This document shows positions 31,484 through 47,025 of a DNA stretch of 64,000 bases, one piece after another. The notes under the pieces were generated by a model. It made no database searches, was not told the DNA's origin, and worked only from the letters and a program-made list of their open reading frames with translations. This stretch comes from Bacilli bacterium (GTDB lineage: Bacteria; Bacillota_I; Bacilli_A; RF39; UBA660). Positions within the stretch are counted from its first letter, which is position 1. Each line of letters starts with the position of its first letter. Location of the stretch: positions 699,013-763,012 of the forward strand of contig JAFQCG010000001.1 of NCBI GenBank assembly GCA_017416535.1, given 5' to 3'. Made by a program: the position numbers and the translations under genes.

Positions 31484-31492
31484 TGTTATAAT
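31484..31492 (+). promoter_or_regulatory. Extended -10 promoter for the transglutaminase-like gene
   Basis: TGTTATAAT, 24 bases before the start at 31516. Confidence 0.6.
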
Positions 31493-31515
31493 TGCTGCAA
31501 GAAAAGGGGGTGGTA

Positions 31516-32697
31516 ATGATGGAAGAAATGATTAGAATGTCACCGGGTTTACCTAGAAGTGGTTATTCTGCTAATGTAGAAGTTAATGACATGGCTTTAC
31601 AAACGTTTTCTGCTGATGAAATTAAAACTGAATGTAATAAAAGAAGAAAAAATAATAATCCAGTTCATGTTTCATTATCAATTAATAATGTATTTTGTTT
31701 AGAAACATATTATGAACTTTTAAAGAAATTAGAAGTAGCTATTGGTGAAAATGTTAAACTTGATATTTATGCAAGTGGTGAAGGATTTAATACTTTGATG
31801 GATGCTATTAGTTATAGTAGTATTAAAGATAAAATAATAGTTCATATTGATGATTATGATGTAAGAAGATATATTGATTTAGGTTGTATTGATTTGACAA
31901 AGACTTCATGTAAGTGTAAATTTTCTAGAAAATATATTAGAAACTTTGAACAGAAAGATTTTAATAAAATATGTATGGATGATAGATTTATATTTGATAG
32001 AAATAAGGCAATGGAAGAAAGAAAGATAATTAGTGAAGTTTGGCGAACTATTGGTGTTGATGATAAGTTAGTGAATAGACTTAGTGGTATTGCGAAAACA
32101 ATTTTAATTACTGATTATATTAATAATAATATAAGTTATGCTCATGATGGACATCGTATTATAGGGACACATAATGGTATTAATCAACATTATGTAGAAG
32201 AATGGGCGAAAGATGGAGTATTAACTTATAAGAGAAAAAGAGGAGTTTGTAGCGGACAAGCTGAGTTAGCTGAGATTCTTTTAAATAACTATTATGCAAA
32301 AACAAATTGTTTTATAGTTTCGGGTGTTTATAGACCACTTAGAGATAAACATATGTGGATAGCACTTAAAGAACAAGATCAAAGTTATGGAATTTGTTTA
32401 ACTATGAGAAGAAGATTTGTTGATTTAAACAAGTTTGGATATGAGGATCATGAAGTAACACTAGAATATGAGCATCAGAATAGAAATGATTACAAATACA
32501 ATATTGATAGGTATGCTGAATTTAGTGATGAAAAGTGTAAATCTTTGAGGATGAGAGTTTATCAAATTTTAGCAGGTGATGAAACACCATTACCACCAAG
32601 AAGACTCCCTAGACCTTTACCTAAAAGAAAAATCAAAGAAACACCATTACCACCAAGAAGATTACCTAAAAGAGTTAATAATATTGAAAACAAATAA
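31516..32697 (+). CDS. Transglutaminase-like protein with a Pro/Arg-repeat tail
   Basis: 393 residues; ATG 31516 or the adjacent ATG 31519, behind GGGGGTGG. The region near residue 250 reads KRGVCSGQAELAEILLNNYY, then HMWIALKEQ, the Cys and His of the transglutaminase/papain-like fold; VDLNKFG is in the place of the third residue. The N-terminal 150 residues are alpha/beta with no family I know. The C-terminus carries two copies of TPLPPRRLP (near residues 356 and 376) joined by a basic linker, a motif like SH3-binding polyproline. No signal peptide, so it is probably cytoplasmic. Enzymatic activity is inferred from the motif only. Confidence 0.6.
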   Translation: MMEEMIRMSPGLPRSGYSANVEVNDMALQTFSADEIKTECNKRRKNNNPVHVSLSINNVFCLETYYELLKKLEVAIGENVKLDIYASGEGFNTLMDAISYSSIKDKIIVHIDDYDVRRYIDLGCIDLTKTSCKCKFSRKYIRNFEQKDFNKICMDDRFIFDRNKAMEERKIISEVWRTIGVDDKLVNRLSGIAKTILITDYINNNISYAHDGHRIIGTHNGINQHYVEEWAKDGVLTYKRKRGVCSGQAELAEILLNNYYAKTNCFIVSGVYRPLRDKHMWIALKEQDQSYGICLTMRRRFVDLNKFGYEDHEVTLEYEHQNRNDYKYNIDRYAEFSDEKCKSLRMRVYQILAGDETPLPPRRLPRPLPKRKIKETPLPPRRLPKRVNNIENK

Positions 32698-33408: not shown

Positions 33409-34551
33409 TTATTCTCCTTTTCTCATTAAATTTCTATATTCTTTATTATTTAATTCATTTGGATCTTGATCTGTTAGAGAATAAATTGTAGTCGTGTAAA
33501 GTTCAAATTCTAACATAGGATCTTTTTCTCTATTAATTTTACTAATAATTGGAATTTCAACTTCTTTTTTTATTTTGTTTAAATATATTTGTCCTTGTTT
33601 AGAAAACCCTAATATTCTTAAATATGTTATATCTTTAAATTGTTTAGCTTTTTCTTTTGTGAAGTTACATAGAATATGTAGTAGCATTCTTGTTATTTTA
33701 TTATGAGTATATCTTTTGCTTTTTACTCTGTTGATTAGTTCTTCGTAAGATGTAGATTCTAAAATATGTTTTTTTAGAGAACTATCTAATCCTTCATCGA
33801 CTGTTTGATATATTGATAAATTATTTTCTGTAATTATTTTATATTTTAGTAATGGAAAATAATCTTCTATAAAATGAAGGTTATTTAGATGTTTTTTTGT
33901 GATTTCTGGTACAAAGTTTGTTACATCTTTATTTTTTCTTAAAGCATTTCTAATTGCTGATGCAGAAGAATGTTCTATTAAAGAATTATCATGATAGTCA
34001 GATGTTCTTTTTATTGTTTCAGGGATAATTTTATAATTATTTTGTTTTATTGTTTTTATATAACTTATACCTAATAGGTCATTTGGTGTTGTGATAACTT
34101 TTCCTGTTAGATCTTCTAAAGCAAGAGATAGTGCAGTAGGATAATTATTTCCAAACTTAGAATATATTTTGACTAATTTATCAAAGTCTTCATTATTAAT
34201 TTGAGCATCAGCTATAGCAGATAAATCTTCAATGTTATCTGATTCACTACCAAATATGACTCTTTCTACTTTAAGATGCTCTAAAATAGTAATTGCACCA
34301 TAACTAAAGTAATCGGCACTTTGTGTTGCGAAGGGGAATGGTAATTCTACGATTAGATCGATTCCTGCTTCTTTTGCAATTTCTGTTTTTTTCCATTTAT
34401 CTATAATTGATACGTCTCCACGTTCTGTAAAGTTACCATTCATTACCAGGATTATAGTATGATCTGGATATAATTCTTTTACTTTTTTTAGATGATATAG
34501 ATGACCATTATGGAATGGATTATATTCAGCAATTATTCCAACTGATTTCAT
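33409..34551 (-). CDS. tmcAL: tRNA(Met) cytidine acetate ligase (TmcAL, YlbM)
   Basis: 380 residues. The nucleotidyltransferase motif GIIAEYNPFHNGHLYHL is at the N-terminus, with MNGNFTERGDVSIIDKW and VELPFPFATQSADYFS next, all diagnostic of YlbM/TmcAL, which makes ac4C at the wobble base of elongator tRNA-Met from acetate and ATP. First gene of the tmcAL-gmk transcript, with AGAGGGA before the ATG. Confidence 0.93.
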   Translation of the reverse strand: MKSVGIIAEYNPFHNGHLYHLKKVKELYPDHTIILVMNGNFTERGDVSIIDKWKKTEIAKEAGIDLIVELPFPFATQSADYFSYGAITILEHLKVERVIFGSESDNIEDLSAIADAQINNEDFDKLVKIYSKFGNNYPTALSLALEDLTGKVITTPNDLLGISYIKTIKQNNYKIIPETIKRTSDYHDNSLIEHSSASAIRNALRKNKDVTNFVPEITKKHLNNLHFIEDYFPLLKYKIITENNLSIYQTVDEGLDSSLKKHILESTSYEELINRVKSKRYTHNKITRMLLHILCNFTKEKAKQFKDITYLRILGFSKQGQIYLNKIKKEVEIPIISKINREKDPMLEFELYTTTIYSLTDQDPNELNNKEYRNLMRKGE

Positions 34552-34626
34552 AATATCCCTCTTTTCTTTGAATGTATTTTAACATAATTTTTTTGTTTAT
34601 ACAATTATTTACTTTGGAGTATAACG

Positions 34627-34761
34627 TGATATAATTTATATGTATAGTATAAATAAAATGTAAAGTGAATATGATTTAAAAGAAGATATTTGTCAAGTTA
34701 TGTAGAATAGGTGTCTAGATTACTTGGATTTTTAAGTTATGAAGTAAATTTATGTTATAAT
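34627..34761 (+). promoter_or_regulatory. Two extended -10 promoters before murG
   Basis: TGATATAAT at 34627-34635 and TGTTATAAT at 34753-34761 lie 126 bases apart in the gap before murG. The proximal one gives a leader of about 16 bases. The distal one would give a leader of about 140 bases, in which I see no strong stem or reading frame. Confidence 0.5.
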
Positions 34762-34783
34762 AAGTTAACTGAGGTGAGACTTT

Positions 34784-35860
34784 TTGAGAGCAATTATTGT
34801 AGCAGGTGGAACTGGAGGACATATTTATCCAGCTCTTGCGATTATTAATAAAATTAAAGAAAAAGAACCTAAAAGTGAATTTTTATATATTGGGACAACT
34901 GATCGTATGGAGAAGGATATTGTTCCAAAACTTGGGATAGATTATGTAGGATTAGAAGTTGTAGGTTTAAATCGTAAAAATTTATTTAAAAATATAGATG
35001 TTTTTAAAAAATATAATAAAGCAGTAAATGATGCGAAAAAAGAAATAAAAAAATTTAATCCAGATGTAGTTATTGGTGTTGGTGGGTATATTACTTTACC
35101 TGTTTTAACTGCTGCGAATAAGTTGGGATATAAGACTGTTATTCATGAACAAAATTCTATACCTGGTCTTTCTAATAAGATGTTAGCGAGATTTGCGGAT
35201 TGTGTATGTGTTTCTTTACCTAATAGTTTGAAACTATTTAAAAATAAGAATGTTGTTTATACAGGGAATCCTAGAAGTGAAGAAATTATTGATGTAAAAA
35301 AGGTTACTAAAAAGAGTTTAGGGCTTGATAGTACTAAAAAATTAGTTGTTATTGTAATGGGATCATTAGGATCACAAACAATGACAAAGAAATTAAAAGA
35401 ATTAATACCAGGTTTTAAAAATAAGAATTATCAAGTAATTGTAGTTACTGGTAAGGGATATATTGATAATTATAAGGATGTTGAAACTCCTTCAAATGTT
35501 CAAATTGTTCCATTTTTAGATAATTTTATTAATGTATTAAAGGATACTGATTTAATAGTATCTAGAGCAGGAGCATCTACTATTGCGGAGATTACAGCAA
35601 TTGGATTACCTGCAATATTAGTTCCATCACCATATGTTACTCATAATCATCAATATATGAATGCGAAAGAGTTAGAAGATTTAGGGGCATGTGTTATTGT
35701 TTCTGAAGATGAGTTTGGTAAGGATAAATTAATTGGTGAAATTGATAAATTATTAAATGATAGTGAAAGCTATGTTAAAATGGCATCTGCAAGTAAGAAA
35801 TTAGGTGTTAGTGATTCGGCAACTAGAATTTATGATGAGGTTAGAAAGTTAATTGGGTGA
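34784..35860 (+). CDS. murG: UDP-GlcNAc:undecaprenyl-PP-MurNAc-pentapeptide GlcNAc transferase
   Basis: 358 residues from TTG 34784 behind GAGGTGAG. Makes lipid II on the inner face of the membrane. The first glycine-rich loop AGGTGGHIYPALAI is at the N-terminus, the second GVGGYITLPVLTA near 94, and the UDP-GlcNAc site in SRAGASTIAEI and ITAIGLPAILVPSP. First gene of a wall-and-division cluster; murB follows four bases after its TGA stop. Confidence 0.96.
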   Translation: MRAIIVAGGTGGHIYPALAIINKIKEKEPKSEFLYIGTTDRMEKDIVPKLGIDYVGLEVVGLNRKNLFKNIDVFKKYNKAVNDAKKEIKKFNPDVVIGVGGYITLPVLTAANKLGYKTVIHEQNSIPGLSNKMLARFADCVCVSLPNSLKLFKNKNVVYTGNPRSEEIIDVKKVTKKSLGLDSTKKLVVIVMGSLGSQTMTKKLKELIPGFKNKNYQVIVVTGKGYIDNYKDVETPSNVQIVPFLDNFINVLKDTDLIVSRAGASTIAEITAIGLPAILVPSPYVTHNHQYMNAKELEDLGACVIVSEDEFGKDKLIGEIDKLLNDSESYVKMASASKKLGVSDSATRIYDEVRKLIG

Positions 35861-35864
35861 AAAC

Positions 35865-36779
35865 ATGAAAAATGAATTATATGAATTAGTAGAACAATTA
35901 AATGTAGGTAGATGTGAAAAGGATGTACCATTAAGTAAACATACAACTTATAAAGTTGGTGGAAAAGCAAAGGTTATGGTTTATCCTAAAAGCGTTGATC
36001 ACCTAATTAAATTAATGAAATTTTTGAAAGCTCAAAAAATTAAACACAAAGTTTTAGGACTAGGCTCTAATGTATTGTTTAGTGATGATATTTACGATGG
36101 TGTAATTATTAGATTAAGTGAAATAGATCATATTGAGTTTTTTGGTAGAAATAAGATTAGAGTTGGAGCTGGCTATTCTTTAATGAAATTAAGTTTACTT
36201 GCTGCAAAAAAAGGATTGGCTGGGTTAGAGTTTGCATCTGGTATTCCTGGAACTGTCGGTGGAGCTGTCTTTATGAATGCCGGTGCTTATAAAAGTGATA
36301 TGGGTTATGTTGTTACTGAGGTTAAAGTATTAACACCAGAACTTAAAATTATTACTTTAGAAAATAAAGAAATGAATTTTCATTATAGAACTTCTTTCTT
36401 ACAGACTCATCCAGGATATATTTGTTTAGAAGCAGTTATAAAATTAACTAAAGGTGATAAGAATGCGCTAGATGAAGTAATTAAAGAAAGACGTCAAAGA
36501 AGAATGGAATCTCAACCATTAGAATATCCATCAGCGGGTTCTGTATTTAGAAATCCAGAAGGTATGTTTGCTGGAAAATTAATTGAAGATTTAGGACTTA
36601 AAGGTAAAACTATTGGTGGTGCTAAGGTTAGTGAAAAACATGCTAATTTTATTATTAATTTTAATAAAAAAGCAAAGGGTAGTGATATTAAGAAATTAAT
36701 TGAACTTGTCCATGATAAAGTATTAGAAGAATATAATGTAGATATGAAAATAGAACAAGAATTTGTTAATTGGGAGTAA
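35865..36779 (+). CDS. murB: UDP-N-acetylenolpyruvoylglucosamine reductase
   Basis: 304 residues from ATG 35865; its ribosome-binding site GGGTGA overlaps the murG stop. FAD-dependent reduction to UDP-MurNAc. Type II MurB features: KHTTYKVGGKA near the N-terminus, GLGSNVLFSD, GLEFASGIPGTVGGAVFMNAG split across the FAD site, SAGSVFRNPEG with the catalytic Ser, and C-terminal HANFIIN. Confidence 0.96.
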   Translation: MKNELYELVEQLNVGRCEKDVPLSKHTTYKVGGKAKVMVYPKSVDHLIKLMKFLKAQKIKHKVLGLGSNVLFSDDIYDGVIIRLSEIDHIEFFGRNKIRVGAGYSLMKLSLLAAKKGLAGLEFASGIPGTVGGAVFMNAGAYKSDMGYVVTEVKVLTPELKIITLENKEMNFHYRTSFLQTHPGYICLEAVIKLTKGDKNALDEVIKERRQRRMESQPLEYPSAGSVFRNPEGMFAGKLIEDLGLKGKTIGGAKVSEKHANFIINFNKKAKGSDIKKLIELVHDKVLEEYNVDMKIEQEFVNWE

Positions 36780-36787
36780 TAAGGGAT

Positions 36788-37477
36788 ATGGCAAAAAAAA
36801 TAGTTAAAAAGAAAAAACTAAAGATATTTAATTTATTTTTAATATTAATAGTCACTTTTGGACTATTTTTTGGCGTATATGTATATTTGAAATTACCAAT
36901 TAAAAATTTAGTTGTAAAAGGGAATAGTTATTTAAATGATGATTATATTTTGAGTTTATCTGGTTTAAAAAAATATCCTAGTTTTTGGTTAACTAGTATG
37001 AATAAGAGTGAAAAGAAATTAAAGAAATCTAACTATATAGTTAATGCAAAAATAAAAAGAGGTTTCAAAAGAGTTATTACTATTGAGGTAGAAGAAAATA
37101 TTGCTTTATTTTCTAAAGAAAATGAAAATGGAAAAATAGTTTTTTCTAATGGTGAAGAACTTAATGTTAATGATAACTTTAGTTTTAGAGTACCGAGACT
37201 TATGAATTATGTTCCTGGTGATCAATATAAAGATTTTGTTAAGGGAATGAAAATAATTAAGTCTGATATCTTACAAAAAATATCTGATATAGAGTATGTT
37301 CCTAATGATATTGATAAAGAAAGATTTTTACTTTATATGGATGATGGAAATGTAGTTTATTTAACATTAACTAAGTTTAAAATGATAAACTATTATAATG
37401 ATGTGTTAGAACAATTAGAAGATAAACATGGTATATTATATTTAGATAATGGAAACCATTTCCAGATAAAGGAGTAG
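36788..37477 (+). CDS. divIB: Cell division protein DivIB/FtsQ
   Basis: 229 residues from ATG 36788 after AAGGG; a TTG at 36770 inside murB is less likely. A basic cytoplasmic N-terminus and one membrane helix (LFLILIVTFGLFFGVYVYL) lead into a POTRA domain (IKNLVVKGNSYLNDDYILSL) and the beta domain. The protein is short but complete. It forms the divisome complex with DivIC and FtsL. Place after murB matches Bacilli dcw clusters. Confidence 0.88.
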   Translation: MAKKIVKKKKLKIFNLFLILIVTFGLFFGVYVYLKLPIKNLVVKGNSYLNDDYILSLSGLKKYPSFWLTSMNKSEKKLKKSNYIVNAKIKRGFKRVITIEVEENIALFSKENENGKIVFSNGEELNVNDNFSFRVPRLMNYVPGDQYKDFVKGMKIIKSDILQKISDIEYVPNDIDKERFLLYMDDGNVVYLTLTKFKMINYYNDVLEQLEDKHGILYLDNGNHFQIKE

Positions 37478-37480
37478 AAT

Positions 37481-38854
37481 ATGAACTTGCAAACACTTAT
37501 AAAGAAGAATATTAAATATGTAGTTTTATTTATACTTTTCTTTTTGTGTTTGCAATTTTTTTATGTAAATTTTTCGGCAGATCAAATGTATAATTATGGT
37601 TTTTCATATGCTGTTTCTTTGGGGGAAATTCCTTATAGAGATTTTAATATGATTATTCCACCAGTTGGGGCTTTGATTTATTCGCTTCCTTTTTTATTAT
37701 TTGGATCTAATTTAATTGTTTTTAATTTATATCAAGCGCTTTTATTATGTATTCTTTTTTATTTTTTGTTTAAATTATTTAAAGAAAAAACTTGGATAAT
37801 ATTAATTATTTTAATGTTGACGTTACCAATACCTTTTATTCATGTCTTATTTCAAGGATATAATTTTTTACTTGTTTTAGAATTTGTTATTTTGATGTAT
37901 TCACTTAAAGAAAAGAAAAGTGATTATTTAATTGGTTTTTTACTTGGAGTATTTTGTTTAACTAAGCAGACTGTTGGTGTACTTATGTGTATTCCTAGTA
38001 TTTTATATTTATTTAAAGATTATAAGAAAACACTTAAAAGATTTTTAGGATTTTTAATACCTTGTTTTATATTTTTAATATATTTGTTATTAACAAAATC
38101 TTTTAGACAATTTTTTGATTTATGTTTGTTTGGAATGTTTGATTTTACAACTAAGAATTCTGGGTTTTTAAGAATATTAAGTGATTTTAATTTTTATATA
38201 TTTGTACTGGAAATAGTTTTTTTAGTTTATTTAATTATTAAATATAGAAAGAATGATAAGTATATTAAAAACTTGATTTATTTATTGTTGTTTTCTTCTA
38301 TTTCAATTCCATTGTTTGATTATATTCATGTTTCATATTTTAGTTTTATATTTATGTTTGTTTTGGTTGATATGATTAAGATAAAGAATAAGAAAATTGC
38401 TTTTAATTCATATTTATTTGCAACTTCTTTTGCGATTATTTGGTTTTTATTTATATTTGGGTTTAAATTACCTAATATTGTTTATATAAATAATTATGGC
38501 TATAGTGTTATGCCAAAAAAGGAATATAAGGAAATAACTACTATTAGTGAATATATAACTAAAAATAAGAATTCTATTGTACTTTCAGATAGGGCATATT
38601 TAGTTAAGTTTGCAGCTGAAGAAAAACTTACTTATTATGATTTGTTGAATTATGGTAATCATGGTTATAAAGGTACAGATAAATTAATTAATATGATAAA
38701 AGATGAAAAAGATAAATATATTTTAATTAATATGGATGATTATGAAAGAGTGGATGTAGGTCAACAAACAAATAAAGATGTAATGAAGTTTGTTATTGAT
38801 AATTATGAAAAAGTGTCAGAACTTGAAATGTATAATATTTATTATAAGGAGTGA
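37481..38854 (+). CDS. GT-C-like multi-pass membrane protein, first of three paralogs
   Basis: 457 residues with about ten membrane helices. After the first helix comes an outside loop with Asp in ADQMYNYGFSYA, then G-E-I-PYRDFNMIIPP, a pattern of the GT-C/PMT_2 (GT39-like) glycosyltransferases that use polyprenyl-phosphate sugars. The central FFDLCLFGMFDF and the C-terminal YYDLLNYGNHGYKG are shared with the next two genes. The start, ATG 37481, has its AAGGAG in the end of divIB. The glycosyltransferase call rests on topology and the loop-1 pattern; acceptor and sugar are unknown. Confidence 0.6.
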   Translation: MNLQTLIKKNIKYVVLFILFFLCLQFFYVNFSADQMYNYGFSYAVSLGEIPYRDFNMIIPPVGALIYSLPFLLFGSNLIVFNLYQALLLCILFYFLFKLFKEKTWIILIILMLTLPIPFIHVLFQGYNFLLVLEFVILMYSLKEKKSDYLIGFLLGVFCLTKQTVGVLMCIPSILYLFKDYKKTLKRFLGFLIPCFIFLIYLLLTKSFRQFFDLCLFGMFDFTTKNSGFLRILSDFNFYIFVLEIVFLVYLIIKYRKNDKYIKNLIYLLLFSSISIPLFDYIHVSYFSFIFMFVLVDMIKIKNKKIAFNSYLFATSFAIIWFLFIFGFKLPNIVYINNYGYSVMPKKEYKEITTISEYITKNKNSIVLSDRAYLVKFAAEEKLTYYDLLNYGNHGYKGTDKLINMIKDEKDKYILINMDDYERVDVGQQTNKDVMKFVIDNYEKVSELEMYNIYYKE

Positions 38855-38859
38855 TTGTT

Positions 38860-40209
38860 TTGAAAAAGTATTTAAAAAATATTTGTATTTTTTTACTTGT
38901 TTTTATTGCTTCTTTTTTAGCAATTCATATACTAGGATTTGCTAATGGATATGGTGATCCTATTAATAGTTATGGATTTGCAAAAGCTATTAGTATGGGA
39001 CAAGTTCCTTATTTGGAATTTAATACTATTTCAACTCCTTTATATGCAATATATCAATCATTATTCTTACATATATATGATGATTTTATAATGATTAATA
39101 TTTCTCAAGCTTTAATAACTGCGGCATCAATTGTTTTAATTTATAAATTATTTGGAAAGAAGAGTTTGTTATTACTTTTAATAGTTTCGATATTTCAATT
39201 TAGAAATATGATTCCAACTTATAATTCATTTAGTTTATTTTTTGTTATTTTGCTTATGTACATGGAAAAAAAACATTCTAATAAAGATTTTTTGATTGGT
39301 ATAATTATTGCTTTAGGTATTATGGCTAAACAGACTGTAGGATGTTTTATGATTATTCCTTCAATTATTTTATATCATAAGAAATTAAAGAAATTAGGAA
39401 TGAGATTTTTAGGATTTTTAATTCCTTGTTTTGTCTTTTTAATTTATTTACTTGTAAATGGTGCATTATATAAATTCTTTGATTTATGTTTATTTGGAAT
39501 GTTTGATTTTTTAAATAATAATGGAGTAGGTGGAGGTCATATTAATACTTTTTGGATTATTATTTCTTTAATTACCTTTATTATTGGAATTATTTTGATA
39601 TTTAAAAATAAAAAAGAAACAAATAATTATTATTTAATTTGGGGGATTTTGTTTGCTTTTCCATTATTTGATATTACACATGTATGTTTTTGGTTAACTT
39701 GTTTTGTGATGATGATTATGCCTTTTTTAAAGAAAAATACTAATGTTATATTAACTATATCTATAGCAGTTGCGATTACTTATACTATTTTATATTCTTT
39801 CTTTTGGACATTTAAATTGGATTTGTGTATATCTAAGGATTTTAATCATTTTAAACATAATTTACATAGAAAAGTAACATACGATAATATTATTAAAATG
39901 AATAATTATGTTAATACATATGATAATCCTATTGTAGTTGGATATTTTTCTATGACACATACTATAATGAATGACAGAAAGTTAAGTTATTTTGATATTT
40001 TATATGATGGGAATTATGGGTATAATGGTATTAAGAAAATGAAGAAAATGATAAGTAAAATGCATGATCAAATATTTGTAGTTTCAATGAATGATTATAA
40101 TAATGATGATGAGTTTTCTCAATTTTCTAAAGAATTAGCAGATTACATAATGGATAATAGTAAAAAAATAGATTCTAATTATGGATTTGATGTTTATTAT
40201 AAGGAGTGA
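38860..40209 (+). CDS. GT-C-like membrane protein, second paralog
   Basis: 449 residues. The start is TTG 38860, eight bases after AAGGAG (38846-38851), which itself overlaps the stop of the first paralog; the GTG at 38851 is inside that site. It shares with paralog 1 the loop Asp (GDPINSYGFAKA), PYLEFNTISTP, KQTVG, FFDLCLFGMFDF and YFDILYDGNYGYNG. The acidic residue of the second loop motif is Glu instead of Asp. Identity looks moderate, so the duplication is old. Confidence 0.58.
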   Translation: MKKYLKNICIFLLVFIASFLAIHILGFANGYGDPINSYGFAKAISMGQVPYLEFNTISTPLYAIYQSLFLHIYDDFIMINISQALITAASIVLIYKLFGKKSLLLLLIVSIFQFRNMIPTYNSFSLFFVILLMYMEKKHSNKDFLIGIIIALGIMAKQTVGCFMIIPSIILYHKKLKKLGMRFLGFLIPCFVFLIYLLVNGALYKFFDLCLFGMFDFLNNNGVGGGHINTFWIIISLITFIIGIILIFKNKKETNNYYLIWGILFAFPLFDITHVCFWLTCFVMMIMPFLKKNTNVILTISIAVAITYTILYSFFWTFKLDLCISKDFNHFKHNLHRKVTYDNIIKMNNYVNTYDNPIVVGYFSMTHTIMNDRKLSYFDILYDGNYGYNGIKKMKKMISKMHDQIFVVSMNDYNNDDEFSQFSKELADYIMDNSKKIDSNYGFDVYYKE

Positions 40210-40213
40210 TTTA

Positions 40214-41554
40214 ATGAAAAAATATAAAGGTTTTATTAAATATATATTTATATTTTGCTTATCTTTAATATTTTTAAATTTCATTCCTTTTGATTTGGAT
40301 GAAATTTGGAATTATGGTTTTATGCATAGTATTTATAATGGTTTAAATCCTTATAAAGATTTTAATATGGTTATAACACCATTTTTTCCTTTTTTATATT
40401 CGTTACCATTTTATATATTTGGATCTAATTTATTAGTTGTTAATGTATGTCAGTCGATACTTATTACATTAGTTTATTTTGTATTAGAAAAGTTATTTGG
40501 TAAGAATGCAAATATATTATTAATAATTTTATTTTTTAATTATGATATGCTTTATGCTAGTTATAATTTCTTTATATTTTTCTTGTTTTTACTTCTTTTA
40601 TGGATGGAGAAAAATGAACTTAATGATTATTTAATTGGTATTGTAATTGGACTTGCTGTACTTACAAAACAAAGTATTGGTGGATGTTTAGCTTTAGTTT
40701 CTTTATTTTACTTATTTAAAAATTATAAGAAGTTTTTTAAAAGAGTTTGTGGGGCAATGATTCCAACGATAATATTTATTATATATATGTTTATAAATAA
40801 CTGTTATAATGAGTTTTTTGATTTATGTATAATGGGAATGTTTGATTTTGGAAAAGAAAATTATATCGGAAATATTTATGTATTATTTTTATTCTTTGTA
40901 TGTTTAGGATTGATTATATATGCAATTTTTAAAGATAAAAAGAATATTAATAATTATTATATTTTAGCATTTTCATCTATAGCTATTCCAATGTTTGATT
41001 TCTTTCATTTTAAGTTTTTCTTACTAGGATTAATATTTATTTGGATAGGAAAATTAAATATTAAAAAGATTGATTTAGATTTACTTATGTATGGATGTTT
41101 AAGTGGTTTAGTCATTATTAATATGATATCTTCAATTGATGGTAGTTTTACTTATCCTAATGATATTAAACACTTTGAATTTAGATATATATCTGATAAG
41201 CATATTAAGGAAACAAAAGATGTTAGTAAAGCTTTATTAAAGTACAAAGATAAGAATGTTATATTGTTGTTTGAACAAAGTTATTACTATAAGATTTTAA
41301 ATGATATTCCAATTAATTATTTTGATTTGATTAATACAGGTAATTGGGGATTTGATGGTTCTAAGAAGTTATATAATAAATTAGAAGAAAATAAGAAAAG
41401 TATTTTTGTTATTAATAGATATTCTTATGTGGGGACTAATCAATCTGATAAAACAGCTTTAAATTATGTTTTAGATAATGGGACTAAAATAGATGAAATA
41501 TATAATTTTGAATTTTATATTATTGAGGATGAGAATACTAACAAAAGTTCTTAA
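40214..41554 (+). CDS. GT-C-like membrane protein, third paralog
   Basis: 446 residues from ATG 40214, ten bases after AAGGAG (40201-40206) that overlaps the stop of paralog 2; an earlier in-frame ATG at 40181 lies in the upstream gene. Shared landmarks: loop Asp in DLDEIWNYGFMHS, PYKDFNMVITP, KQSIGG, FFDLCIMGMFDF and YFDLINTGNWGFDG. Same topology as its neighbours. It ends 62 bases before ftsA, which seems to have its own promoter. Function as for the other paralogs. Confidence 0.58.
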   Translation: MKKYKGFIKYIFIFCLSLIFLNFIPFDLDEIWNYGFMHSIYNGLNPYKDFNMVITPFFPFLYSLPFYIFGSNLLVVNVCQSILITLVYFVLEKLFGKNANILLIILFFNYDMLYASYNFFIFFLFLLLLWMEKNELNDYLIGIVIGLAVLTKQSIGGCLALVSLFYLFKNYKKFFKRVCGAMIPTIIFIIYMFINNCYNEFFDLCIMGMFDFGKENYIGNIYVLFLFFVCLGLIIYAIFKDKKNINNYYILAFSSIAIPMFDFFHFKFFLLGLIFIWIGKLNIKKIDLDLLMYGCLSGLVIINMISSIDGSFTYPNDIKHFEFRYISDKHIKETKDVSKALLKYKDKNVILLFEQSYYYKILNDIPINYFDLINTGNWGFDGSKKLYNKLEENKKSIFVINRYSYVGTNQSDKTALNYVLDNGTKIDEIYNFEFYIIEDENTNKSS

Positions 41555-41582
41555 AATACTTTCATAAAATTTAAATTTATAG

Positions 41583-41588
41583 TATAAT
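41583..41588 (+). promoter_or_regulatory. Possible ftsA promoter (-10)
   Basis: TATAAT at 41583-41588, 28 bases before ftsA, with a weak TTTCAT about 17 bases upstream. It would let ftsA-ftsZ be expressed apart from the membrane genes. Confidence 0.45.
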
Positions 41589-41615
41589 TGTTTTTAAGAA
41601 TAGGAGATGCATTTG

Positions 41616-42854
41616 ATGAGTAATATTTATACTGGAATCGAACTTGGAACTAGTAGTATAAAGATTGTTGTATTAGAGAAAACTGATGATCAATACCATG
41701 TTTTAGCGTCTGTTAGTAGTGCGTCTTCTGGTATTAAGAATGGTCAAGTTGTTGATATGAAACAAGCTATTGTTTCTATTAAAGAGGCTTTAAAACAAGT
41801 GGATGAAATGTTAGGAGTTAAGATTACTAAAGTAGTTGCTTGTGTTCCTCCAACAGATTGTCGTATGGATATTGTTGTTGGAAGTAGTAATGTTGAAGAT
41901 ACTAAATGTATTACAGGAGAAGATATATGTAGTGCATTGAGTGATGCTTTAAGAGGTCAAGATTTTGAAGAATATGAATTGATTACAGCAACACCTATTA
42001 GTTTTAAAGTAGATGGAAAAGAAAATATAAAGGATCCTAAAGGTATGAGTGGAGATGTATTAGAAACAAGAGTGGTTATTAGTACACTTCCTAAAGAGGG
42101 ATTATATAGAATACTTGAAGTGTTAAAGTTAAGTGGAGTTGAAACTGTAGATATAGCATTTACTTCTACAGGAGATTACTATGCTATTAAGAATGATAAA
42201 TATGATGAGATAGTAGGAGCAATTATTAATATTGGTGAGACATCTACTAATATTTCTGTATTTAATAAAGGAATTCAAATAAAACATGCAATTATTCCGG
42301 TTGGAAGTTATAATGTTGATAGAGATATTGCTTATATTTTTAAGATTGAAAATAGTGAAGCAAGAAAGTTAAAAGAGACTTTTGCAGTTAGTTTAAATAG
42401 TTATGCTGATAATAATGATGTAGTTGAAGTTAAGGATATTTATGGTGAAAAGAAGTTGCTTTCACAAGTTGGTGTATCTAAAATAGTAGAGGCAAGACTT
42501 AGAGAAATACTAAAGTTTGCTAAAAATGAAATAAAAAACTTAACAAATAGAGAAATACGTTATATAATTATTACAGGTGGTTTAAGTGAACTTGCCGGAT
42601 TTTCGTATTTAATAGAAGAAGAGTTCGGAAGTTTAGCTAAAGTTTGCAATATTTCGACAATGGGAATTAGACATAATAAATACAGTAGTACTTTAGGTAT
42701 TGTTAAATATTTTGATGATAAACTATCTTTAAGAGGAAAAAGCTATAATATGCTAAATAATGAAGATATTGAAAGTTTAATTTCAACAGGACAAAGACTA
42801 ACAAATAATGATAATATTATTAGCAAAGTGTTTGGGCATTTTTTTGATAATTAA
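41616..42854 (+). CDS. ftsA: Cell division protein FtsA
   Basis: 412 residues from ATG 41616, nine bases after GGAG. Actin-like ATPase that tethers FtsZ to the membrane. Phosphate-1 motif IELGTSSIKIVVLE at the N-terminus, the SHS2 1C domain following (KITKVVACVPPTDCRM), connect/phosphate-2 region GAIINIGETSTNISVF and adenosine motif IIITGGLSELAGF. The C-terminal part (ISKVFGHFFDN) is the amphipathic membrane-targeting helix. ftsZ follows after 12 bases. Confidence 0.95.
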   Translation: MSNIYTGIELGTSSIKIVVLEKTDDQYHVLASVSSASSGIKNGQVVDMKQAIVSIKEALKQVDEMLGVKITKVVACVPPTDCRMDIVVGSSNVEDTKCITGEDICSALSDALRGQDFEEYELITATPISFKVDGKENIKDPKGMSGDVLETRVVISTLPKEGLYRILEVLKLSGVETVDIAFTSTGDYYAIKNDKYDEIVGAIINIGETSTNISVFNKGIQIKHAIIPVGSYNVDRDIAYIFKIENSEARKLKETFAVSLNSYADNNDVVEVKDIYGEKKLLSQVGVSKIVEARLREILKFAKNEIKNLTNREIRYIIITGGLSELAGFSYLIEEEFGSLAKVCNISTMGIRHNKYSSTLGIVKYFDDKLSLRGKSYNMLNNEDIESLISTGQRLTNNDNIISKVFGHFFDN

Positions 42855-42866
42855 GGAGGACGAGGT

Positions 42867-43997
42867 ATGTTAGGCGGATTAGAAATGGATCAATTAGCAA
42901 AAATAAAAGTTATTGGACTTGGTGGTGGTGGAGGAAATGCCATCAACCGAATGGTAGAATCTGGGGTTAAAGGTGTTGAATTTATTGCAGCAAACACAGA
43001 TTTACAAGTATTAAATTCATCAAAAGCAGATGTTAAAATCCAATTAGGACCTTCACTAGCAGAAGGACTTGGAGCAGGTGGAAGACCTGAAATTGGGAAA
43101 GAAGCTGCTATTGAGTCAAAGAAAGAAATAGAAGATGCATTAGCAGGTGCAGATATGATTTTCATCACAAGTGGTATGGGTGGTGGAACTGGTACAGGAG
43201 CTGCACCAGTAGTTGCTGAAATAGCTCAAGGACTTGGAGCTTTAACAGTAGCAATCGTAACTAAACCATTCTCATTTGAAGGTAAGAGAAGAATGGAAAA
43301 TGCATTAGCAGGAATAGATGAATTAAAGAAACATGTTGATACATTAATCGTTATTCCTAATGATAGATTAAGAGAAATCATTGATAAATCAACTCCAATG
43401 TTAGAAGCATTTAAAGAAGTTGATAATGTATTACGTCGTGGTGTTCAATCAATTTCAGATTTAATTGCTGTAGTTGGACTTGTTAACTTAGACTTTGCTG
43501 ACGTTAGAGCAGTAATGGAAAAATCAGGTAGAGCATTAATTGGTATTGGTATTGGTATGGGAGAAGATAGAGCTATTGAAGCTGCTAAACAAGCTGTTTC
43601 ATCTGCACTTCTTGAAAATTCAATCGAAGGTGCTACTGATGCAATTATTAATATTACAGGTGGAGTAAACTTAACATTATTCGAAGCAGAACAAGCTGCT
43701 GAAGTAGTTAGAGCTGCTGCTAATACAGATATTAATACTATCTTTGGATCAGTTATTAATGAAAACTTATCTGATGAAGTTATCGTTACAGTAATTGCTA
43801 CTGGTTTTGATAAAAAGAAACCACAAGTACAAGAACCAGTATTCAGTAACGTTAATCAATCAAGAAGAAGTGCTCCAGTAAGAGATGATGGTCCTTATGG
43901 TGGAGTAAGTCCAGAAGTATTAGATAATGATGATGATGGTAGTGATGATGGAGATATCTATGATTTACCTCCATTCTTAAGAGAAAGAAATTATTAA
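42867..43997 (+). CDS. ftsZ: Cell division protein FtsZ
   Basis: 376 residues with a strong AAGGAGGACGAGG leader. Tubulin-like GTPase forming the Z ring. Seen: N-terminal [16 protein letters not shown], the tubulin signature [15 protein letters not shown], and the T7 loop [11 protein letters not shown]. After a short variable linker rich in Asp, the C-terminal peptide [13 protein letters not shown] gives the site for FtsA binding. Base use is a little richer in GC and CA-ending codons than neighbours, as often for highly expressed genes. Confidence 0.98.
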
Positions 43998-44005
43998 TAA
44001 TATGT

Positions 44006-44031
44006 AAAGCAAGAGAAATCTTGCTTTTTTT
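44006..44031 (+). terminator. ftsZ terminator
   Basis: AAAGCAAGA (44006-44014) pairs perfectly with TCTTGCTTT (44019-44027) around GAAA, then T residues. Confidence 0.88.
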
Positions 44032-44074
44032 GTTTATTAAAGTAGTGTATACTTAAATAAGATAGGTGAAGTAT

Positions 44075-45325
44075 ATGATAGTGGCTATTTGTTTAATTTC
44101 ATTATTAATTGCTATACCAGGTTTTGTTCATAAAGCTGGTTATAGTTTTTCTAAAGCTTTAATACCGGGATATAATATTTATTTGTTTTTAACTTTAATT
44201 GAGTTTCCTCCTGTATTACTTTTATTACTTGCTTTAGGACTTATATTTTTACCAGATAGAATGTTTATTGCGACATTTATTTGTATAATACTTCCTTTTA
44301 TGACTAATGATGCTTATGGTAAAGGTAAGATTTCTTCAATGCTAACTTTATTTTTACCATTTTTTATGTATCCTTTTTTAGGATATTTTAGTGGAGTATA
44401 TGCATATGATGTTACATCTGAAAAATATAGATTTATAAAAAACCATAAAATATTATGTATTTTATTAGTTTTTTTCTCAGTATATATGTATTCTAATTTT
44501 ACTGTATTGGTTGAAGGCAATAAATTAGTTAATAAAGATGATTTTCATTATGTTAATGATATTTATATGTCGGATGGAAAGATTTATAATGATTATTTAA
44601 ATGATAGAGAAAAGAAAATGTATGAATTTATGTTTAAGAATACACTAGCTTTTAAAAATAAGTTAGATGTTGATATGAGCGAGTTTGGATGTATTGATTA
44701 TAGTGATTGTGGTGATTTGATTAACTCGGCACATGAAGCTATTTTGATTGATCATCCTGAGTTAATTAATTATGCTGGATACTCTTGGATCTATAGAGAG
44801 GATAGTGGTTTTAAACTTACTTTAAATTTTTCTGTAGGTAATATGATTTCTGCAAAAATTGGAGAAATGAAAATACAAAGAATAATTGATAATATTAAGA
44901 CTGAGACTAAAGGTATGTCTGATATTGATAAGATTCATTACGTTTATGAATGGATTGGAGAGAATAATGATTATGATAAGACATTTACCTATATGTCAAA
45001 GAATCAATCTATTTATAATGTATTTATGAAGAATAATGCAGTATGTGCTGGATTTGCGAAAGCAAGTCAGGTAATATTTCAAAATATTGGAATAAATTCT
45101 TATACAATAACAGGAAATAGTACAGGACCACATATGTGGAATGTAGTAGAACTTGATAATAAATATTATTTTTATGATTCGACAGTTGCGACTAGTGCGA
45201 GAAATAAAGAGACCAGTTGGTATTACGATGGACTAAAACAAGATTTTATGTCTAGCTATACGGTTGATCATGCAGAATGGTATCCTAAAATAGAAAAAAC
45301 TAATGGTTTGTATATAAAAGAGTAA
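44075..45325 (+). CDS. Membrane protein with extracytoplasmic transglutaminase-like domain
   Basis: 416 residues from ATG 44075, after AGGTGA (the in-frame GTG at 44066 is part of that site). About four N-terminal membrane helices up to residue 145, then a soluble domain. Its Cys, His and Asp in AVCAGFAKASQVIFQNIGI, TGPHMWNVVEL and KYYFYDST are spaced as the triad of transglutaminase-core enzymes. Related domains in Gram-positive bacteria cross-link or cleave surface proteins. A terminator overlaps its stop. The TGase fold is a good call; the reaction is not known. Confidence 0.75.
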   Translation: MIVAICLISLLIAIPGFVHKAGYSFSKALIPGYNIYLFLTLIEFPPVLLLLLALGLIFLPDRMFIATFICIILPFMTNDAYGKGKISSMLTLFLPFFMYPFLGYFSGVYAYDVTSEKYRFIKNHKILCILLVFFSVYMYSNFTVLVEGNKLVNKDDFHYVNDIYMSDGKIYNDYLNDREKKMYEFMFKNTLAFKNKLDVDMSEFGCIDYSDCGDLINSAHEAILIDHPELINYAGYSWIYREDSGFKLTLNFSVGNMISAKIGEMKIQRIIDNIKTETKGMSDIDKIHYVYEWIGENNDYDKTFTYMSKNQSIYNVFMKNNAVCAGFAKASQVIFQNIGINSYTITGNSTGPHMWNVVELDNKYYFYDSTVATSARNKETSWYYDGLKQDFMSSYTVDHAEWYPKIEKTNGLYIKE

Positions 45326-45342
45326 TTATACTCTTTTTTTTG
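45316..45342 (+). terminator. Terminator overlapping the stop of the transglutaminase-like gene
   Basis: AAAAGAGTA (45316-45324) pairs with TACTCTTTT (45329-45337) around ATTA; the TAA stop is at 45323-45325. Confidence 0.85.
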
Positions 45343-45382
45343 TAAAGTAGTTAAATTTAGTCGTTAATATATGTAGAATTAA

Positions 45383-45391
45383 TGATATAAT
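45383..45391 (+). promoter_or_regulatory. Extended -10 promoter for the TasA-like pair
   Basis: TGATATAAT, 41 bases before the start at 45433. Confidence 0.55.
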
Positions 45392-45432
45392 TAAAATAGA
45401 TAAGTATATAATAAAAATGGTGGTTAGAGTTT

Positions 45433-46128
45433 ATGAAAGAGAGTAAGAGAAAATCAAAAGTTATCGAAATAATAGCACTTCTTTTATCTGTATTAGCTTT
45501 TATTATTGGTATATTTGCTTTTGGAATTTCTAGTAATATAAAAGATAAAACAGAAGTAAAACCAGAAGGTATTACTGGTGTGGGTGCAGAAAAACCATCT
45601 ATTGTTTTCTCCTCTGATAAAGATAAGAAAGATACAATTGTTTCTGGAAAGACAATTAATGGAGCTGTTGCAGGTAGTGCAAAGATTATTACTAACGAGG
45701 ATGAAACTCTAGCTAATTTTGATGTAAGATTTACTAAACCCGGGCAAGAGGTTATATATACTTTTTATTCTCAAAATAAGGGGAAAATAGATGCTTATTT
45801 AGATACTATTACTTATGCTAATGTTAAAGGAGGAAACTTCTTTAAAATATGTAGTGCAGTTAATCCTAAAACTACAAATAGATATTTAGTTAGTAGTGCG
45901 TGTGAAGCGATTAGTATGACTGTTAAAGCAGGAGATAATGTTATTACTAATGGTTCTATTACAGATATTAAAGAACATATTTTAAAAAGTGGAGATAAGG
46001 AAAAAATAGTTATTACTATTAAGTATGATAAAAATGGAACTCAAGTAGATGGAGATTTTGTTGTTAGATTTGGTTCTGTTACTTTATCGTATTTATCAGA
46101 AAGTGAGTTACTAAATATAAGCAGATAG
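45433..46128 (+). CDS. Exported TasA/camelysin-like surface protein (231 aa)
   Basis: A basic N-terminus (MKESKRKSKVIE) and hydrophobic segment IIALLLSVLAFIIGIFAFGI form an uncleaved anchor or late-cleaved signal. The outside part is beta-rich with FDVRFTKPGQEVIYTFYSQN and an ending IVITIKYDKNGTQVDGDFVV, the kind of pattern seen in TasA/camelysin proteins. Two Cys (KICSAV, SSACEA) are in the same relative places in the next gene and may form a disulfide. The two genes are four bases apart. The family call is by pattern, not by search. Confidence 0.55.
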   Translation: MKESKRKSKVIEIIALLLSVLAFIIGIFAFGISSNIKDKTEVKPEGITGVGAEKPSIVFSSDKDKKDTIVSGKTINGAVAGSAKIITNEDETLANFDVRFTKPGQEVIYTFYSQNKGKIDAYLDTITYANVKGGNFFKICSAVNPKTTNRYLVSSACEAISMTVKAGDNVITNGSITDIKEHILKSGDKEKIVITIKYDKNGTQVDGDFVVRFGSVTLSYLSESELLNISR

Positions 46129-46140
46129 GATGTGATTATT

Positions 46141-47025
46141 TTGATTACAAGATATCGAAGAAATAGAAATCTATTATTAATAATCTTAGTAATAGCGGTT
46201 TCGTTTATGACAGTTGGTTTTGCGGCTTTTTCTTCAGAGTTAACAATTAGTTCTAGTGCTATAGTAAAACCTGATGCAAGTGCATTTAGAGTTGTATTTT
46301 CATCTAGTGGAACAGAATATTTAACAAATGAGGTTTCAGGTACTGCAACAGGGGATGCTACTGCATATAAAGCAAATATTGCTAATGATGGAGATAGCCC
46401 AACAATAAAGAATTTAACTGCAACGTTTACTGGACCAGGTGAAGCTGTTAAGTATGAATTTTATGTTTATAATTCTGGTGCTTATGTTGCTTATTTAACT
46501 GATATAAAATTTAATAATGTTGATGGTGAAAGTTTACCTAAAGTATGTACTGCGATTGATAGTAGTTCAGTTACTGAAACACTAATGAATAATGCTTGTA
46601 ATGATATAAGTGTAACTGTAGATATTGGAGATAATTCAGTTACAAGTTCTACTTCAAAAATAAGTGGTAATTCGTTAGATAAAAATGCATTTAAGAAGGT
46701 AACTGTTACAATTAAATATGAAGATAATGGTAATAGTTCAGATGGTGACTTTAAAGTAGAATTTGGAGATATTAAATTTACTTATAGTACGGTTGATACT
46801 GCTAGAAACTTAATTTCTTTTACTATTGATGGAGTAAGTTATCAAGCTGAACCTGGTATGACATGGGATGCTTGGATGAATAGTGAGTATAATACAGTAG
46901 GATTATATGCTGATGGTTGTAGAAGTCCTGCGATTAATGGTTTAGCTTTGTCTACGGTTTATTATATGAGTGATGTAATAGAATCGGGTTCTTCTTATTT
47001 TGCTGTATCACCAGCTTGTCCTTAG
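46141..47025 (+). CDS. Exported TasA/camelysin-like surface protein with extra C-terminal module (294 aa)
   Basis: Starts at TTG 46141, ten bases after AGGA; the GTG at 46132 is too close. The signal is LLLIILVIAVSFMTVGFAAFSS, typical of TasA/camelysin proteins that begin with an alternate signal. The beta domain matches the previous protein (TATFTGPGEAVKYEFYVYNS, paired Cys in KVCTAI and NNACND, VTVTIKYEDNGNSSDGDFKV). From about residue 225 a second module follows, ISFTIDGVSYQAEPGMTWDA, with two more Cys. Function is likely structural at the cell surface; no matching signal peptidase gene is in the window. Confidence 0.55.
   Translation: MITRYRRNRNLLLIILVIAVSFMTVGFAAFSSELTISSSAIVKPDASAFRVVFSSSGTEYLTNEVSGTATGDATAYKANIANDGDSPTIKNLTATFTGPGEAVKYEFYVYNSGAYVAYLTDIKFNNVDGESLPKVCTAIDSSSVTETLMNNACNDISVTVDIGDNSVTSSTSKISGNSLDKNAFKKVTVTIKYEDNGNSSDGDFKVEFGDIKFTYSTVDTARNLISFTIDGVSYQAEPGMTWDAWMNSEYNTVGLYADGCRSPAINGLALSTVYYMSDVIESGSSYFAVSPACP

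Follow-up and report, generated by a model that had tools for sequence, protein, structure and literature searches.

Three-part glycosylation systems have been established for lipoteichoic acid (LTA)-like polymers of Gram-positive bacteria, including CsbB/GtcA/YfhO, GtlA/GtcA/GtlB, and GtsABC (PMC8035078). In Streptococcus mutans, a separate operon encodes PgfS together with two related membrane proteins, one of which belongs to the PMT-2 subfamily, and these proteins modify surface adhesins (PMC5856776). Here we describe three genes for predicted GT-C glycosyltransferases, denoted GT_A, GT_B, and GT_C, that lie between divIB and ftsA in the genome of a Bacilli bacterium of the order RF39. The locus has in common with the three-part systems a predicted GT-C enzyme in a genome that also encodes a GT2 candidate resembling polyprenyl-phosphate-sugar synthases and GtrA, and with the Pgf system a GT2 nearest to PgfS and more than one related membrane protein. 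In contrast to systems of the CsbB/GtcA/YfhO type, the GT-C genes are present in multiple copies within the division cluster, and the donor genes are mostly found elsewhere. The Pgf genes occupy their own operon beside an adhesin gene, whereas the genes described here are embedded among division genes. At about 455 aa, each of the three proteins is half as long as the YfhO frame (931 aa) encoded in the same genome. The placement of the genes is conserved and lineage-specific.

The window analysed is a stretch of 64,000 nucleotides, and the coordinates of the relevant features are presented in Table 1. As the original prediction had stated, three paralogs are found between divIB and ftsA. The genes are adjacent, on the same strand, and directly between the two division genes, a position that is referred to below as the slot. 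The pairwise identities of the proteins were determined to be 34 and 36% for GT_B and GT_C, respectively, against GT_A, and 29% for GT_B against GT_C. These three proteins are the sole members of the family in this genome.

Table 1. Features of the divIB-ftsA region (positions within the window)
Feature	Position	Strand	Remarks
divIB	36770..37477	+	upstream border of the slot; POTRA_1 4.6e-12, FtsQ_DivIB_C 5.7e-4
GT_A, GT-C fold glycosyltransferase (predicted), A-type paralog	37481..38854	+	457 aa; Pfam GT87 29.3 bits; AlphaFold2 model resembles ArnT
GT_B, GT-C fold glycosyltransferase (predicted), B-type paralog	38851..40209	+	452 aa; no Pfam match; AlphaFold2 model resembles ArnT
GT_C, C-type paralog	40181..41554	+	457 aa; start probably 40214; family assigned by alignment
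ftsA	41607..42854	+	downstream border of the slot; TIGR01174 above cut-off
ftsZ, last gene of the run	42867..43997	+	ORF named from sequence; relatives have an ortholog (67-95% identity) after ftsA
terminator-like stem-loop with T-run	44006..44027	+	2 found versus 1.4 expected in shuffles, weak evidence

There are 3 bases between divIB and GT_A, GT_A and GT_B overlap by 4 bases, and 52 bases separate GT_C from ftsA. The start of GT_C is probably the internal ATG at 40214 (MKKYKG...), 4 bases past the end of GT_B, and not the overlapping start at 40181, since the internal ATG is aligned with the starts of several homologs. The stem-loop 3' of ftsZ is the only plus-strand terminator-like site in the interval 34300-44200. 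Because of this and the tight spacing, murG, murB, divIB, the three glycosyltransferase genes, ftsA, and ftsZ look like a single transcription unit. A promoter scan was uninformative (60 sites versus 76 expected). Short DNA matches (about 31-49 bases) to other parts of the genome were set aside as probable chance similarity of low-complexity sequence.

Two other loci of the window were recorded in passing. After ftsZ (44066-47025) there are genes for a DUF5684 and transglutaminase-like membrane protein and for two related small secreted proteins with no Pfam match. Counterparts in the genomes G001 and G002 differ in order and number, with three small secreted proteins in G001. Between pyk and gmk (31492-32697) there is a 401 aa ORF with no Pfam match that by eye resembles a transglutaminase-like protease; G002 has other ORFs at this position.

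Structural models of GT_A and GT_B were obtained with AlphaFold2 using an input alignment of 14 sequences, with mean pLDDT values of 84.9 and 84.0, respectively, and a pTM of 0.86. The top Foldseek matches were ArnT and an oligosaccharyltransferase. The best match of both models is ArnT, the undecaprenyl-phosphate aminoarabinose transferase (PDB 5F15/5EZM), to which they align from end to end, C-terminal domain included, at a sequence identity of 8-10%; the acceptor context of ArnT (lipid A) differs. With VIA-align, the GT_A and GT_B models were aligned to ArnT with Z values of 15.7 (382 residues, rmsd 4.9) and 15.9 (380 residues, rmsd 5.2), respectively. ArnT was followed by ALG12, ALG3, PMT, AglB, OST, AftA, AftB, and EmbB. 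All of the listed rows with Z of at least 7.6 are GT-C enzymes, and the next row in the GT_A list, which is unrelated, has a value of 3.8. The models cover GT_A and GT_B, and GT_C was aligned with both proteins over its full length. In the GT_A model, TM1 is followed by two short first-loop helices carrying D34 and PYxDFN and then by TM2, an order typical of GT-C enzymes. D34 lies where the helix following TM1 begins, in a loop that the fold match predicts to be extracytoplasmic.

In profile searches, GT_A scored above the cut-off of 25 bits for Pfam GT87 (PF09594), and GT_B and GT_C gave no match to this family. For PMT_2 there were weak sub-threshold or borderline matches with GT_A and GT_C; GT_B and the homologs examined have no Pfam match above cut-off. 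The three proteins gave nothing in an NCBIfam search, and none of them matched YfhO (PF09586) with an E value limit of 1. When the PDB sequences were searched with the family profile, neither ArnT nor any other GT-C chain was recovered; the single match (E 0.5) was a peptide synthetase. From the whole-length model matches, together with the near-invariant loop Asp and other residues described below, it is very probable that the three proteins are GT-C glycosyltransferases acting outside the cytoplasm, and that their family has hardly any Pfam coverage. In other systems this fold serves to modify the cell envelope. The GT-C likeness suggested originally was thereby upheld by structure prediction, and a fold unlike GT-C was not obtained.

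All three proteins carry D34...NYGF, GxxPYx(D/E)FN, and FFDLCxxGMFDF, as predicted. The C-terminal motif had to be amended to xxGNxG(Y/F)xG; the N/D-x expected before GN fails in GT_B, where the residues are Y-D. Across 70 homologs that align with the family over the full length, D34 is found in 67 (42 of the 45 in the slot clade defined below and all 25 others), and D54, Y127, K162, F222, P277, H283, GN (392-393), G395, and Q429 are near-invariant. The dN/dS values relative to the sister genome G001 were determined to be 0.38, 0.32, and 0.215 for GT_A, GT_B, and GT_C, respectively, compared with 0.212 for divIB and 0.17 for ftsA. All three genes are under purifying selection, and GT_C, the slowest evolving of them, is like divIB in this respect. 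These ORFs are not chance, given the 70 full-length homologs and dN/dS values of 0.22-0.38.

The slot contains one to four copies of the family in at least eight genera of one family of bacteria. Besides the genome described here, it is filled in G001, G002, G015, G019, and contig CALVKW010000026 and, within an order-wide sample of 385 genomes, in G064, G142, G151, G171, G173, G192, G196, G275, G297, G382, and G406. Family copies precede ftsA at a contig end in G113 and G414. In ten other genera of this bacterial family (G025, G004, G018, G028, G033, G003, G012, G030, G021, and G005), and in the outgroup G041 from outside it, divIB is directly followed by ftsA. The contig of G006 (genus g5) ends at this gap. 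With the slot filled across genera and empty in neighboring lineages where the gap is readable, an insertion restricted to a single strain is ruled out. In G005, an ORF of 1147 aa that matches TelA below the threshold is inserted between murB and divIB (L041:4417-7860).

In the ftsA tree, the slot-filled genomes form one group with moderate support (95/54). A single clade of 45 rows (99/96) holds the slot copies together with four off-slot members and splits into a C-type (16 rows), an A-type (8), a B-type (8), and smaller groups; these groups cut across genera. By this tree the A, B, and C types separated long ago and have each been retained across genera, and a recent tandem duplication is ruled out. 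The simplest reading would be one entry into the slot, early duplication in place, and differential loss thereafter. The old paralogs suggest different acceptors or linkages. The earlier proposal that the three copies give different linkages is consistent with the age and retention of the paralog groups, but the copy number varies from 1 to 4. A divisome glycan carrying three linkages would be a reasonable, though conjectural, idea.

In G192 the order is divIB, GT-C, GtrA (97 bits), M23 peptidase, GDSL hydrolase, and ftsA (L098:4877-6717), and here GtrA is linked to the slot GT-C as in multi-component transmembrane glycosylation systems. The slot of G015 also holds a DUF6056 protein. A further branch of the family is represented in genus g102, where it lies just upstream of murG-murB-divIB, 144 and 141 bases before murG. 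Close homologs are found outside the division cluster in G098, G149, and G331, and the activity would therefore not depend on placement in the slot. Several neighbors of off-slot genes were inspected and share no theme (PDDEXK transposase, CofD and WhiA, RNase J, thymidylate kinase, and ThiI). Searches of the open-access literature yielded no earlier description of these organisms as having GT-C genes within the division cluster. As a separate observation, the slot of G406 (L089:1187-5572) contains four family copies, two large ORFs, and an amine-oxidase-like FAD protein before ftsA.

Candidate genes for the donor pathway were found mostly at a distance from the slot. A GtrA-type flippase domain is present above the cut-off in 18 of 18 slot-filled genomes, the match in G015 being weak. 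In the genome described here (G000), the segment C4:461-463 kb encodes a PssD-like protein, a PssE-like-GtrA fusion, and beside the fusion a GT2 of the CsbB/PgfS type (313 aa), which matches PgfS with 282 bits, below the cut-off of 500. This GT2 is not linked to the slot in its own genome. Among the minority of slot-filled genomes that were searched, orthologs are found in G001, G002, and G019; no CsbB/GT2 ortholog was found in G015 at 1e-40, although a slot copy is present. In G132, a family gene overlaps the end of a CsbB/PgfS-type GT2 gene. The ortholog is also common in slot-empty relatives, and so the co-occurrence of GT2 and slot genes is not specific. A whole-genome search of G000 located the YfhO GT-C elsewhere, and it may be this protein, as an alternative to the slot enzymes, that works with the GT2/GtrA pair; G001 and G002 have no YfhO at the threshold used for G000. 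Two fusions in contig C4 of G000 were also noted. One joins a PssE-like GT28 C-terminal domain to GtrA (L164:6142-7026), and GtrA-containing frames of similar size occur in many relatives. The other, of 800 aa, joins a CDP-alcohol phosphatidyltransferase to a sulfatase domain and overlaps a GtrA gene (L160:5588-7990).

We propose, with a probability of about 0.7, that the three enzymes move sugar from a polyprenyl-phosphate-sugar to an envelope acceptor and are produced along with the septal machinery. The CsbB/PgfS-type GT2 would synthesize the donor inside the cell and GtrA would flip it, both proteins being encoded elsewhere in the genome. At the outer face of the membrane, each enzyme would use the loop Asp (D34 in GT_A) to take one sugar from the polyprenyl-phosphate-sugar and would deliver it to an acceptor that may be a wall polymer, a surface protein, or a lipid-linked precursor. 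Decoration of new envelope during division is proposed because the three genes are in one run with septal genes, and they would be co-made with murG, murB, divIB, ftsA, and ftsZ.

It is not very likely, although worth considering, that the enzymes are protein O-glycosyltransferases of the Pgf/PMT type acting on secreted or surface proteins during their export, with the division cluster serving merely as a convenient constitutive operon. In the fold comparison, protein O-mannosyltransferases rank near the top, reaching Z values of 13.7 for GT_A and 14.6 for GT_B, and the GT2 of the same genome is nearest to PgfS. However, ArnT and enzymes with lipid acceptors match at least as well, so the fold does not decide the acceptor; the PgfS match is below the curated cut-off, and the slot contains no gene resembling a protein substrate. 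A slightly better, still tentative candidate is an LTA-like polymer, as for YfhO/GtlB in Bacillus and Listeria, which would be a narrower form of the main proposal. This acceptor is favored by the GtrA found in all 18 slot-filled genomes examined, by the LtaS-like protein that G000 encodes (304.9 bits to NF053595), and by the similarly long sulfatase-family proteins seen in 12 of 13 slot-filled genomes. The LtaS match, however, falls well short of the curated cut-off (970), the slot genes of G015 occur without a sulfatase-family match, a TagF-type polymerase match is absent in G000 and in 10 of 13 slot-filled genomes, and G000 already has YfhO. Uncultured orders such as RF39 are moreover predicted to be without standard wall and lipoteichoic acid synthesis (PMC10868615).

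Another narrow form of the main proposal, in which the enzymes act on lipid II or nascent septal peptidoglycan as a division-specific glycan change for septation, appears improbable. The position between divIB and ftsA is kept in eight genera, an M23 peptidase and a GDSL hydrolase share the slot in G192, and a family member is upstream of murG in genus g102. Against these points, neighboring genera with the same division genes do without a slot copy, some slot-clade homologs are off-slot, and GT-C enzymes are not known to use lipid II as a substrate. That the proteins are inactive with a GT-C fold, or that the array is a neutral hitchhiker in a strongly expressed operon, is very unlikely. The copy number does vary, and GT_A and GT_B evolve faster than ftsA and ftsZ, but 70 distant homologs preserve the loop Asp together with a set of polar residues, the dN/dS values are well below 1, and the paralog groups persist across genera.

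Transfer of sugar to an envelope acceptor, with expression alongside the septal genes, is the reading that we prefer. A more specific version, that the array is a division-coupled module acquired once in an ancestor, in which each paralog transfers a distinct sugar to an envelope component found only at the septum, is doubtful. In pneumococcus, capsule synthesis is reported to be tied to division (PMC10233549). The divIB-ftsA neighborhood is among the most stable in these genomes, and a group of gut Bacilli with reduced genomes has inserted and kept a glycosyltransferase array within it. The array suggests that this lineage makes an envelope glycan, and it provides a precise set of genes for asking whether surface glycosylation is tied to division.
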